Shown piece by piece: positions 9,826 through 17,596 of a DNA stretch of 64,000 nt. Below the pieces are notes generated by a model that was given only the letters and a program-made list of their open reading frames with translations, was not told the DNA's origin and did no database searches. The translations under genes were made by a program, and so were the position numbers. Position 1 is the stretch's first letter. Each line of letters begins with the position of its first letter. The stretch is from Candidatus Peregrinibacteria bacterium CG10_big_fil_rev_8_21_14_0_10_55_24 (GTDB lineage Bacteria > Patescibacteriota > Gracilibacteria > Peribacterales > Peribacteraceae). Where the stretch lies: the NCBI GenBank assembly GCA_002772745.1, contig PFDV01000005.1, forward strand, positions 31,609 to 95,608, read 5' to 3'.

Positions 9826-9906
9826 ATGTCTCACCATTCCTTCCTCTTCGGCTTCTCCTTCGTCCCGTATCGTGCGGGGGACGAGCCGTATGATCCTCTG
9901 TTCTAG
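9826..9906 (+). CDS. leader peptide, Phe-rich: MSHHSFLFGFSFVPYRAGDEPYDPLF*
   Basis: 5 Phe and 2 Tyr in 26 codons; aligns with leader 1 (F6, G9, P14, A17-G18, E20). Confidence 0.77.
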   Translation: MSHHSFLFGFSFVPYRAGDEPYDPLF

Positions 9907-9949
9907 AATGGATTGTAGGTTCCTCCCCCACGCGGCGGAGGTGTTTTTT
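9871..9949 (+). promoter_or_regulatory. transcription attenuator 2 upstream of DAHP synthase
   Basis: CGTGcGGGGGA (9871-9881) complementary to TCCCCCaCGCG (9924-9934); terminator CCTCCcCC acgc GGcGGAGG (9922-9941), then gtgTTTTTT. Confidence 0.78.
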
Positions 9950-9968
9950 CTATTTTCCCCTTTCTACC

Positions 9969-11053: not shown

Positions 11054-11125
11054 ATGCTTCTGGCTCAGTTCAACACTGGCACCTCCACACCGCCGCCGCG
11101 AGCGGGGAGGGTGCCGTGTGCCTAA
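11054..11125 (+). CDS. leader peptide, Pro-rich: MLLAQFNTGTSTPPPRAGRVPCA*
   Basis: three consecutive CCG Pro codons plus a fourth; G9 and A17-G18 as in leaders 1 and 2. Confidence 0.74.
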   Translation: MLLAQFNTGTSTPPPRAGRVPCA

Positions 11126-11188
11126 TGGCATGAGCGAATTTCGTTCGTAAAGCCCCCTCCCCACGCAGATTCCCCGGAGGGGGTTTTT
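11102..11188 (+). promoter_or_regulatory. transcription attenuator 3 upstream of proB-like gene
   Basis: GGGGAGGG (11104-11111) complementary to CCCTCCCC (11055... arm at 11155-11162); terminator CCCCCTCC/GGAGGGGG (11153-11160/11176-11183) then TTTTT. Confidence 0.75.
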
Positions 11189-11210
11189 GTATTTTTTTCT
11201 CTTCCCTATC

Positions 11211-13747: not shown

Positions 13748-16018
13748 CTAGAGGGGTGATAGCGGAGCGATGCTCAAGGCAAAGCTCTTGCGCTCACCGG
13801 AATCGAATCGTATGTCGACAATATCACCTCTGCGGTTGAGTACGGTTCCCGTGCCGAAAGAGGGATGCGAAACGCGGGTATTGGGCCCGAAGGCATCCTG
13901 ATTCACATCGAGATTCTCGGTATCAAAATCTTGGTTGAATTCCACCGAGATTTCCCGCTCTTCTTGGCGATAGGGCTGCAGATCGCCCTTGAGAGCGCGC
14001 TCCCTTCCCTTTTCCGAGACCCAAGCAAAGACACTCAGGATGTCGTCGCTGCGGCGCTCAATGACATCCTCCGGAAGATCGTCGAGGAATCTGCTTGGTG
14101 CGTTGGCTTGTGTTGTTCCCCAGAGCATGCGGGAACGCGCAAAGAACATTCTCAAATGGGTTTTTGCCCGTGTCATTCCCACGTACATCAATCGTCGTTC
14201 CTCTTCCAACTGCTCGCGGTCGAACATGCTGTTGCTGTGTGGGAAAATGCCCTCCTCGCATCCCGTAATCATCACATGCTCGAACTCCAGCCCCTTGCAG
14301 AGGTGTAAGGTCATCAGGGTGAGCGCGTCATCCTTTGCGTCCTGGAGCGCATCGACCTCGGAGACGAGCGCAACTTCCTCCAGGAAACTCGTGAGTGATG
14401 TGTGCGGATCAAGCGTGTCGTACTTGTGCATCACGGAGAGAAGCTCCTGGACGTTCTGCCAACGAGTTTCCCCCTCCTCCGTTTCATCCCGCAGCCACCC
14501 TTCCATATCGGTTGCTTCCAACAGATGCTCGGCCAGGTGCGCCACGTTTTCGTGCTGGGCGAGTTCCCGCAGTTTTTCGACGAGCTCAACAAAGCCCTCA
14601 ATCCGCTTGGTAGTGCCCTCACCCAGTGCATCAATATTCTGCGCATTACAGAGGCAGTCCCACAGAGGCATGCCGTTCTCAGCACCGTAGGCTTGGATCT
14701 TGGCGATGGTCGTCTGGCCGATTTTTCGTCCAGGAACGTTGAGGATCCTTAAGAGCGAGAGCGTGTCGTGTGGATTGAGAATCACATACAGGTATGCGAG
14801 GACATCTTTCACCTCCTTGCGTGCGTAAAACTTCACGCCGCCGATGATACGGTAGGGGATGCCCGCGCGCATGCAGGCCTCCTCAAACAGGCGCGATTGT
14901 GCGTTGGTGCGGTAGAGAATCACCTGCATGTTGAGGGGGACGCCATTTCCGCGCAGTTCCTCGGCGGTGCGGATGGCCTCCTGAGCTTCTTTGCGCTCAT
15001 CCTCCACCTCCTGCACCACCACCTTGGGTCCTTCCTTGCGTTCGCTCCACATCGCTTTTTCCGGGCGATTGGGATTTGCTGCGATAATGCCGTCCGCCGC
15101 GGTGAGGACCAGTTGTGTGGAACGGTAGTTCTGTTCCAGTTTAATCCGCTTCGCGTTGGGATAGTCCTTTTCAAACTCCAGGATGTTCCTGATATCCGCT
15201 CCGCGGAACGCGTAGATGGACTGGTCCGGGTCGCCGATGACGCAAAGATTCTGGTACTTCTGCGCGAGCAACGTGATGAAGAGATACTGCGAGTGGTTGG
15301 TATCCTGGTACTCGTCCACGTGCAGGTAGCGCCAGGTTTCCTGGTAACGATCGAGCACCTCGGGGACTTCGTGAAACAGGCGGACAGTCTCGAGAATCAG
15401 ATCATCGAAATCGAGCGCGTTAGCCTCGCGCAACGCTTTTTGATACTGCGCGTACAGACGCACAATCTGCTGCATGCGCGGGATTGTCGCCTGCTCAGCC
15501 GCCTCCTTGGGGCTCACGGCTTCACACTTAAAGCGGCCGATGTACCCCAAGACCGCTTTGGGCTTGAGCTCACTCTGTTCGATGCCTGCTTCCTTGAGTA
15601 CCTGCTTCATCAACCGTTCTTGATCCGAGGCATCGTAGATGACGTACGACCGGTCGCGTCCCAATTTCTCGTAGTCGCGCCTGAGGATCCGTGCACAGAT
15701 CGAGTGGAATGTTCCCATCACCGGGAGCTTGCCGTCCTTCGATCCGAAATCGGGCACCTCTTCGCCCTGCGTGATGTGGAGCAGCTTGCGGATGCGCCCT
15801 TTCATCTCTCCTGCGGCCTTATTGGTAAACGTCACTGCCAGAATTTGCCACGGTGGAACACCGTCGTGCATCAGGCATGCAATGCGGTGCGTGAGCGCCC
15901 GCGTTTTGCCGCTGCCTGCCCCCGCCAAGATGAGGAGCGGTCCCTTGGTATGGTTCACCGCTTCCTGCTGCGGTTCATTGAGAAGTGAGAAGATGGGGTC
16001 GGCGTGCTTTGTCGGCAT
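13748..16018 (-). CDS. uvrD: UvrD/PcrA-type superfamily 1 DNA helicase
   Basis: GPLLILAGAGSGKTRALTHRI, VDEYQDTNHSQY, QNYRST, TLHLCKGLEFEHV. Confidence 0.93.
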   Translation of the reverse strand: MPTKHADPIFSLLNEPQQEAVNHTKGPLLILAGAGSGKTRALTHRIACLMHDGVPPWQILAVTFTNKAAGEMKGRIRKLLHITQGEEVPDFGSKDGKLPVMGTFHSICARILRRDYEKLGRDRSYVIYDASDQERLMKQVLKEAGIEQSELKPKAVLGYIGRFKCEAVSPKEAAEQATIPRMQQIVRLYAQYQKALREANALDFDDLILETVRLFHEVPEVLDRYQETWRYLHVDEYQDTNHSQYLFITLLAQKYQNLCVIGDPDQSIYAFRGADIRNILEFEKDYPNAKRIKLEQNYRSTQLVLTAADGIIAANPNRPEKAMWSERKEGPKVVVQEVEDERKEAQEAIRTAEELRGNGVPLNMQVILYRTNAQSRLFEEACMRAGIPYRIIGGVKFYARKEVKDVLAYLYVILNPHDTLSLLRILNVPGRKIGQTTIAKIQAYGAENGMPLWDCLCNAQNIDALGEGTTKRIEGFVELVEKLRELAQHENVAHLAEHLLEATDMEGWLRDETEEGETRWQNVQELLSVMHKYDTLDPHTSLTSFLEEVALVSEVDALQDAKDDALTLMTLHLCKGLEFEHVMITGCEEGIFPHSNSMFDREQLEEERRLMYVGMTRAKTHLRMFFARSRMLWGTTQANAPSRFLDDLPEDVIERRSDDILSVFAWVSEKGRERALKGDLQPYRQEEREISVEFNQDFDTENLDVNQDAFGPNTRVSHPSFGTGTVLNRRGDIVDIRFDSGERKSFALSIAPLSPL

Positions 16019-16061
16019 GGTGGGCGGTCATTCTACCCGTTTTTCCCCTCCATGCCGAACT

Positions 16062-16274
16062 CTACAACACGCCTAATTTCCGTCGGATCTGGTTGAGGAT
16101 CTGCTCGCGGTTGAAGGAAATCGCATTCATGCGGAAGCTTTCCTCTGTGGTGGCGACAACCTCACCATGGACGCTGCAGAGTTCTGCGACAATGCGGACC
16201 TGCGCAGAGCCGTTACTCTGCCGGTAGTGGATGGCAGTGCCATCCGGATAGGGCTCGATCCACTCGTGTGCCAT
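16062..16274 (-). CDS. hypothetical 70-aa protein downstream of Val-leader attenuator
   Basis: MAHEWIEPYPDGTAIHYRQSNG...; ATG 22 nt after terminator U-tract; 43 nt upstream of uvrD. Confidence 0.65.
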   Translation of the reverse strand: MAHEWIEPYPDGTAIHYRQSNGSAQVRIVAELCSVHGEVVATTEESFRMNAISFNREQILNQIRRKLGVL

Positions 16275-16295
16275 GGTGGAGAAAGGGAGGAATAC

Positions 16296-16356
16296 AAAAA
16301 ACCCCGCTTGGCGCGAGGTGGGGGGGGGGAAATCGTCAGCTACCAACCTACGCGCC
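16296..16356 (-). promoter_or_regulatory. transcription attenuator 4
   Basis: minus strand: GGCGCG-T-AGGT (16356-16346) complementary to ACCT-CGCGCC (16319-16310); terminator ACCTCGC gccaa GCGGGGT + TTTTT. Confidence 0.75.
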
Positions 16357-16410
16357 TATCCTGGGGACGGCGACGAGGACGAGGCTGACGACGACACGCA
16401 CAGATTGCAT
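16348..16410 (-). CDS. leader peptide, Val-rich: MQSVRVVVSLVLVAVPRIGA*
   Basis: 7 Val, 2 Leu, 1 Ile in 20 codons; stop codon lies within antiterminator segment. Confidence 0.74.
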   Translation of the reverse strand: MQSVRVVVSLVLVAVPRIGA

Positions 16411-16420
16411 GAGTGACTCT

Positions 16421-16450
16421 ATGCTACGAAGAACCGGTTCCTCTTGTCAA
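16421..16450 (-). promoter_or_regulatory. promoter for Val-leader
   Basis: TTGACA (16450-16445), 18 nt, TAGCAT (16426-16421); leader ATG 10 nt downstream. Confidence 0.5.
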
Positions 16451-17596
16451 TTATTTCCGGAGAGCGTCGAGGTCTTTTTTGGAGAGTTGAGGGTGAGGCT
16501 GGGTAAGTTCGAGGAGCCTCTCCTGCACTCTTTCGGGATTTGCAACAAGTTCCTTCACGTCCGATGTATTAAAGTTGATGTTGCGGATCTTCTCGCGCTT
16601 CACCAGTACTTCCGTGAGTAGTTCGGGGTCTGTCTCACGTATTTTAGCGAGTGTGGCGATGCCGTGTTGCATGAGGTGCCAATCAACGGCGTTACGCGTG
16701 GAAATATGAAAATCCAGGTGTGCCAGGATATCGACCAGGTTTTCGCGTTGCTGGGGATCCATTTCCTGCGCGAACTCGTAGTTAGCGATGCGCTTGAGTG
16801 TGGCAAGGATCGGTTCCAGTGCCTCCGGCGAAACGACGAAGAATGAGAAGCCGTCTTCATAGTAGGAGAGCTTCTTCAATTCTCCTACGGCATGTGTCGG
16901 GATGACCAGGAACACCGTGGGGTAGATATCCTTCTTCCCCTTCACTTTTGTTGCGGTCTTCTTCACCTGGTCGGCAATGTACGTCTGCATGTTTGACGCC
17001 TTGGATACCTTCGCGTCAAAGATGACGTACTGTCCGATGAATTCGATGAGGACATCGGGTTTCAGGCTTCCGTAGAACCCCTCGGGGAGATTGGCGTTGT
17101 CGTAGCATGTAAAGCCGTATTGTGGTTTTCTACAGAGTTCTGTGAGATGAGCGACCACTGTGTGTTCATGCTCTGCCCACAGCCGGTCACGTTCTTCCAT
17201 TTCCTGCTCTTGGCGCGCTGCGTCGGCTCGCGTGACGCGCTCCCGTTCCCGTTCCAAACTCTTTTGTGCAGCTTCGAGTTTTTCGAGCGAGGTTTGGTGC
17301 TCCCTGTCTTTGCGTTTCTCCTCTGCCTCGAAGGTGGCCACGCGCGTGGAGAGCTCCTTGAGTTGCGCTTTGATGTCGCTCTTCTCCGCGAAGAGCACCT
17401 TGTTGTTTCCGCTCAATTCATCCTTCTCCGATTTGAGCTGTATGCATTGGTTCTTCAGCTCACCGATTTCTTCCCTGCGTCTCTCCAGTTCTGCGGAGAG
17501 GTGAGGGTCGCCAGTTTGCTTGGATCGGAGGAAGAGCCAACTGAGGGTGGCGATGCCAATGACGGTGATGACGAGGAGTGTGTTCGTGAGGAGCAT
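16451..17596 (-). CDS. rmuC: DNA recombination protein RmuC family
   Basis: N-terminal TM, coiled coil, LKPDVLIEFIGQYVIFDAKV. Confidence 0.85.
   Translation of the reverse strand: MLLTNTLLVITVIGIATLSWLFLRSKQTGDPHLSAELERRREEIGELKNQCIQLKSEKDELSGNNKVLFAEKSDIKAQLKELSTRVATFEAEEKRKDREHQTSLEKLEAAQKSLERERERVTRADAARQEQEMEERDRLWAEHEHTVVAHLTELCRKPQYGFTCYDNANLPEGFYGSLKPDVLIEFIGQYVIFDAKVSKASNMQTYIADQVKKTATKVKGKKDIYPTVFLVIPTHAVGELKKLSYYEDGFSFFVVSPEALEPILATLKRIANYEFAQEMDPQQRENLVDILAHLDFHISTRNAVDWHLMQHGIATLAKIRETDPELLTEVLVKREKIRNINFNTSDVKELVANPERVQERLLELTQPHPQLSKKDLDALRK

Follow-up and report, generated by a model that had tools for sequence, protein, structure and literature searches.

What does a valine-rich leader, equipped with its own promoter and terminator, control when the genes behind it encode a 70-aa protein and the helicase UvrD, and which signal does it read? 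The question arises on the minus strand of a 64,000-nucleotide stretch (the window) from a Candidatus Peribacteraceae genome of 1.29 Mb (98.8% complete, 13 contigs), which represents the sole species of its genus among the genomes that we compared. Relatives were taken from a family sample of 74 Candidatus Peribacteraceae genomes, and a wider class sample was searched with a covariance model. The set used for conservation was assembled by reading the regions upstream of uvrD in relatives, and comprises 21 Candidatus Peribacteraceae genomes with the element at that position, the window genome included.

A valine leader with alternative pairings lies before the 70-aa gene

All parts named by the original prediction were located: the minus-strand promoter TTGACA-N18-TAGCAT (16450-16445 and 16426-16421), which scores 10/12 with its 18-nt spacer; the leader with 7 Val among 20 codons (16410-16348); the sequence GGCGCG-U-AGGU over the leader stop codon (16356-16346), complementary to ACCU-CGCGCC of the terminator (16319-16310); and the terminator with its U-tract, followed by the 70-aa ORF and, 43 nt further on, by uvrD. 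The features are as follows.

16450-16296, minus strand: whole element, made up of promoter, leader, antiterminator and intrinsic terminator
16445-16450, minus strand: -35 hexamer TTGACA, directly next to the stop codon of the rmuC-like gene upstream
16421-16426, minus strand: -10 hexamer TAGCAT, ending 10 nt before the leader ATG
16348-16410, minus strand: leader ORF MQSVRVVVSLVLVAVPRIGA with stop codon (20 codons, 7 Val)
16384-16391, minus strand: segment 1, TCGTCAGC, within the leader ORF, pairing with 16340-16333 (from the inverted repeat and the fold)
16346-16356, minus strand: segment 2, antiterminator strand GGCGCG-U-AGGU, across the leader stop codon
16333-16340, minus strand: 3' part of segment 2, GCTGACGA, the partner of segment 1 (from the inverted repeat)
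16310-16319, minus strand: segment 3, ACCTCGCGCC (ACCU-CGCGCC), pairing with segment 2 and forming the 5' arm of the terminator
16301-16319, minus strand: terminator hairpin 3:4, ACCTCGC-GCCAA-GCGGGGT
16296-16300, minus strand: terminator U-tract, TTTTT
16062-16274, minus strand: 70-aa gene, the direct target, without a Pfam match and with relatives behind the same attenuator
16030-16035, minus strand: own -10 element of uvrD, TAGAAT, 12 nt before the uvrD ATG
13748-16018, minus strand: uvrD (UvrD/Rep helicase), 43 nt after the 70-aa gene
16451-17596, minus strand: upstream rmuC-like gene, a conserved neighbor

We also found an exact 8-nt pairing of TCGTCAGC with GCTGACGA (16391-16384 with 16340-16333), which supplies a 1:2 stem and had not been part of the original prediction. 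Against dinucleotide shuffles, the duplexes of the window sequence reach z -3.2 (2:3; p 0.007) and z -3.8 (1:2). Among the window's 534 ORFs that start with ATG and span 12-30 codons, the leader is the sole one with at least 33% Val, and its terminator hairpin pattern was found once in the 1.29 Mb genome. A search of the window with Rfam 15 returned two tRNAs only, the attenuator having no match above the gathering score. The upstream gene (16451-17596), presumably rmuC-like as judged by recognition of its sequence, gave no Pfam match above the cut-off.

The element is kept upstream of uvrD in the family

A single-sequence search of the 74 family genomes with the 70-aa protein yielded weak matches only (best E 0.007); several of these sit between rmuC and uvrD, and it was these that led us to the conserved element. 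The original prediction had suggested looking for relatives beside branched-chain amino acid genes; they sit between rmuC and uvrD instead. In 21 Candidatus Peribacteraceae genomes the element stands before uvrD and keeps its Val-rich frame, its promoter spacing and its alternative pairings; leaders of this kind include MQQHQIVVSLVLVVVPQG, MSQLNTLISLVLVVVVP, MLLNLVTVVVVVVPQG and MKQFMVLAVVLVAVPLG. A -35/-10 pair whose -10 hexamer ends 8-10 nt before the leader ATG is present in 19/21 genomes, and because the start codon lies so close to this hexamer, the leader mRNA should be nearly leaderless. The leader frame contains no in-frame stop across the 21 leaders (the other two frames hold 21 and 7 stops), and its valines are encoded by GTC (95 codons), GTT (10), GTA (3) and GTG (3). 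The leaders of three relatives (G064, G081 and G083) carry an inserted, repeat-like stretch of 24 nt (CTGCCCTGAGCTCGTCGAA..., containing CCTGAGCTCGTCGAA), across which the reading frame is kept.

Using a covariance model of the Val element, we recovered 22 strong copies (E < 1e-10) from the 74 family genomes, one per genome. Within the class sample the model matched 28 genomes, 25 of them in the family and the other three weakly (E > 5e-5), so that the element is essentially confined to the family.

Segments 2 and 3 covary, and the predicted folds switch

Leader peptide and complementarity are both present in the relatives, and they covary in the 21 genomes, which supports the central proposal of the original prediction, a transcription attenuator with a Val leader before the 70-aa gene. 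Compared with dinucleotide shuffles, the 2:3 duplex has a mean z of -2.8 over the 21 genomes, with a negative z in 21/21 and p<0.05 in 18/21 (it falls short of this level in G027, G089 and G090). Two-sided changes were seen even inside one genus, where GGCGC/GCGCC of G089 becomes GGUAC/GUACC in G090, and again in G075, which has GCACGAG/CUCGUGC where others have GCGCGAG/CUCGCGC. In the terminator stem 90.5% of cells are paired, and covariation lies above every slid control. The 1:2 stem is less general: despite its exact match and low z in the window genome, its mean z is only -1.0 across the 21 genomes, and it is no stronger than shuffles in most relatives. What the computation shows is the sequence of the element, its conservation, its alternative pairings and its promoter positions.

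In a fold test, the footprint of a ribosome was masked out of the RNA, the stall and the 13-nt length of the footprint being assumptions. With the ribosome at the stop codon, the terminator was predicted in 20/21 genomes; the free RNA folded into the terminator in 15/21 and otherwise in the other 6/21. A stall at one or more Val codons gave the antiterminator in 16/21 genomes, as compared with 23% when spacers were shuffled, and in the remaining 5/21 no Val codon gave it. The window sequence switches cleanly in this test, with the terminator predicted for the free RNA and for the ribosome at the stop codon, and the antiterminator for stalls at codons 8, 11 and 13.

The predicted direct target is a fast-evolving small protein

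The direct target of the Val attenuator would be the 70-aa gene. In relatives, too, the ORF behind the attenuator encodes a small protein, usually of 70-140 aa, which differs among genomes and varies far more than the attenuator does. The description of the 70-aa protein as an orphan holds insofar as a Pfam search with it and seven other small ORFs found nothing above the cut-off, but not with regard to the family, in which divergent relatives exist. Nine small proteins, the 70-aa protein among them, align at ~30% identity to it, and a profile built from the nine recovered its own members only. Where dN/dS could be computed for pairs of small proteins, values of 0.11-0.39 were obtained, indicative of purifying selection, and for this reason we regard the small proteins behind the attenuator as real genes. 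The 70-aa gene belongs to a fast-evolving set of small proteins under purifying selection.

The fold of the 70-aa protein is predicted as beta-beta-beta-beta-alpha, with a pLDDT of 84.9 from the single sequence (44 to 85 across the five models), and a fold search of this structure against the PDB gave no match below E 0.1. Nucleic-acid binders of the PC4 and PUR types share a like topology among the weak fold matches only, and, with E above 0.1, were not counted as evidence. In seven relatives (G027, G082, G083, G084, G011, G096 and G006), a second leader-like ORF (MSHSSAYTMKQVLNTPKR, MHRPAAMPAPKYFNTKNR) and terminator, followed by a second small ORF, stand in tandem before uvrD; in this second leader-like ORF no single amino acid predominates.

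Leaders for other amino acids occur in the genome and the family

The original prediction had compared the terminator with three others; the window holds two other leader-terminator elements, both on the plus strand. A leader-plus-hairpin scan of the window gave no convincing element. The one at 9826-9956 has a Phe-rich leader (MSHHSFLFGFSFVPYRAGDEPYDPLF), a hairpin and a U-tract directly before a DAHP synthase gene (9969), and is a probable Phe attenuator. The other (11054-11190) is a probable Pro attenuator, with three consecutive Pro codons in its leader (MLLAQFNTGTSTPPPRAGRVPCA), a promoter (TTGACG-17-TACACT) and a strong terminator; it precedes a proB-like kinase gene (11187), whose best match is glutamate 5-kinase at a score below the curated cut-off. 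An RNA model pointed to window positions 9826 and 11118.

Elsewhere in the same genome (G000:C6:32385-32504), an Ile leader (MTVRFIQISIISIPRLA) and terminator precede ilvA, although no acetolactate synthase was found. A covariance model of Ile leaders matches 36/74 family genomes, and at most of the loci that we read the leader stands before threonine ammonia-lyase (ilvA), a citramalate synthase-like gene (as in G088:C69 and others) or a small ORF. In five relatives (G064:C18, G090:C59, G035:C4, G031:C40 and G021:C6), the arrangement of leader, terminator and small ORF recurs behind an Ile leader, the ORF being of 105-192 aa and lying ahead of ilvA in two. In addition, a Val/Leu leader stands before acetolactate synthase (ilvB) and an ilvE-like gene in G067 (C61:27141-27251), and a Val leader before an ORF and valS in G073 (C50:57681-57792). 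In every case with a nameable pathway, therefore, the leader fits it, and this speaks for the Val leader as a sensor. Val and Ile leaders in the family have a common layout and similar hairpins (CTCGC/GCGGGG and CCCGC/GCGGG, respectively), a likeness that would favor divergence over independent invention.

Proposed mechanism and competing explanations

Taken together, we consider it highly probable that the element is a classical ribosome-mediated transcription attenuator which reads the supply of charged tRNA-Val and drives the 70-aa gene, uvrD being transcribed mainly from its own promoter. Transcription would begin shortly before the leader ATG. On completing the leader, a ribosome would sit at the stop codon and cover segment 2, allowing the 3:4 terminator to form. 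When charged tRNA-Val is short, the ribosome would stall in the Val run (codons 8-13 in the window), covering segment 1 and leaving segment 2 free to form the 2:3 antiterminator, and RNA polymerase would read through into the 70-aa gene. If the leader were not translated at all, 1:2 and 3:4 would form and transcription would stop. The 70-aa protein would thus be made during valine starvation. Stalling, termination, the direction of regulation and valine as the signal are what we infer from the pairings and the leader.

We give very little credence to the reading in which the hairpin merely terminates the rmuC-like gene and the Val-rich ORF is a (GTC)n triplet repeat that arose by chance. In its favor, 132 nt separate the rmuC-like stop codon from the hairpin, which follows in the same direction, and the leader consists of a low-complexity GTC/CTC run. 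On the other side, a promoter stands between the rmuC-like gene and the terminator, at fixed spacing to the leader ATG in 19/21 genomes; the ORF stays in frame although its codons vary and insertions occur, the latter preserving the frame; covariation links segments 2 and 3; and similar leaders occur at other loci in G073, G080 and G021. The alternative that the attenuator governs an operon of the 70-aa gene and uvrD, such that valine shortage raises the UvrD helicase, appears unlikely. The gap between the two genes is just 43 nt and contains no terminator-like site on the minus strand, and many genomes keep the module in the interval from rmuC to uvrD; yet uvrD has a conserved -10 of its own, a TANNNT hexamer 12-22 nt before the gene in 46/65 genomes, a frequency that falls to 2/65, 8/65 and 9/65 in three control stretches. 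In seven relatives uvrD is separated from the first small ORF by a second terminator, uvrD lies 1.6 kb further on in G062 and on another contig in G061, and the module is located elsewhere in the three genomes with leaders at other loci. Because of this separate promoter element, the second terminator and the occurrence of the module apart from uvrD, control of uvrD would be at most partial, whereas the short gap would still permit some read-through. Thus, uvrD, which the original prediction had entertained as a target, is not supported as the main one: it would be at most a secondary target reached by read-through, driven mainly by its own promoter.

A further question is whether the leader senses valine alone, or instead a general slowing of translation or the whole branched-chain supply (Val, Leu and Ile). 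The latter seems to us rather improbable, albeit worth keeping in view. Residues of the 21 leaders are 30% Val (6.4% in the background), 16% Leu and 4% Ile, and the ilvGMEDA leader of E. coli is likewise multivalent for branched-chain amino acids; since Leu and Ile are present, the signal may be branched-chain supply generally. Against this, Val is the most frequent residue and, of the three, the most over-represented (4.7x, versus 1.6x for Leu and 0.7x for Ile), and Ile leaders in the family have a peptide of their own, rich in Ile. Acetolactate synthase had no match in the window genome and is present in only 5/74 family genomes. As the enzyme had no match, control by Val cannot serve to adjust de novo valine synthesis by that route, and the switch probably reports valine uptake or import rather than synthesis.

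Relation to known attenuators

The ilvGMEDA and ilvBN leaders of E. coli are ribosome-mediated attenuators of branched-chain operons. Like them, the Peribacteraceae element has a leader rich in Val, Leu or Ile, a stop codon inside segment 2, mutually exclusive 2:3 and 3:4 stems with a candidate 1:2 stem that is strong in the window genome, and an intrinsic terminator before the first gene. Unlike them, it is followed not by ilv genes or other genes of branched-chain synthesis but by a gene for a small protein (in the window, the 70-aa gene and then uvrD); it has a nearly leaderless leader (8-10 nt between -10 and ATG); and it occurs in a genome without acetolactate synthase and in a different lineage, Candidatus Peribacteraceae. 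The Ile leaders of the same family share its promoter layout, its start right after the -10 and a similar hairpin with U-tract, and differ in having an Ile-rich peptide and matching pathway genes downstream.

In Actinobacteria, ilvB is preceded by candidate leader peptides with terminators and leuS by classical attenuators; in the ilv case, codon substitutions were reported to leave regulation unchanged (PMC1262725). The Peribacteraceae element resembles these in its short ORF with Ile, Val or Leu codons and its poly-U terminator, and they illustrate that attenuators can serve aminoacyl-tRNA synthetase genes; in contrast to these leaders, which precede biosynthetic or synthetase genes (PMC1262725), its alternative pairings are conserved and covarying. 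The paper on the first complete Peribacteria genomes makes no mention of leaders or attenuation (PMC4736985). Our literature search, which covered few subscription journals and preprints and for that reason provides weak evidence of novelty, found no paper that treats attenuation by leader peptides together with Patescibacteria or the candidate phyla radiation in this sense, and the sole paper combining attenuation, leader peptide and uvrD concerns E. coli persisters. The mechanism is known; the lineage and the orphan target, an unexpected one, are new as far as searchable papers go.

Implications

Most amino acids of candidate-phyla bacteria are believed to come from other organisms. One tentative possibility is that amino-acid leader attenuators in Peribacteraceae have been extended beyond biosynthesis into cassettes that respond to starvation and encode fast-evolving small proteins; the Val switch would turn on such a protein in bacteria unable to make valine, perhaps to alter nucleic-acid handling or the acquisition of amino acids from the surroundings or a host. 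If real, a conserved Val sensor alongside pathway-matched Ile, Phe and Pro leaders would mean that even reduced genomes still monitor single amino acids by way of the ribosome. The leader sequence alone would then offer a clue to which nutrients are scarce for uncultured cells, and the small proteins behind such attenuators would be marked as probably starvation-induced.
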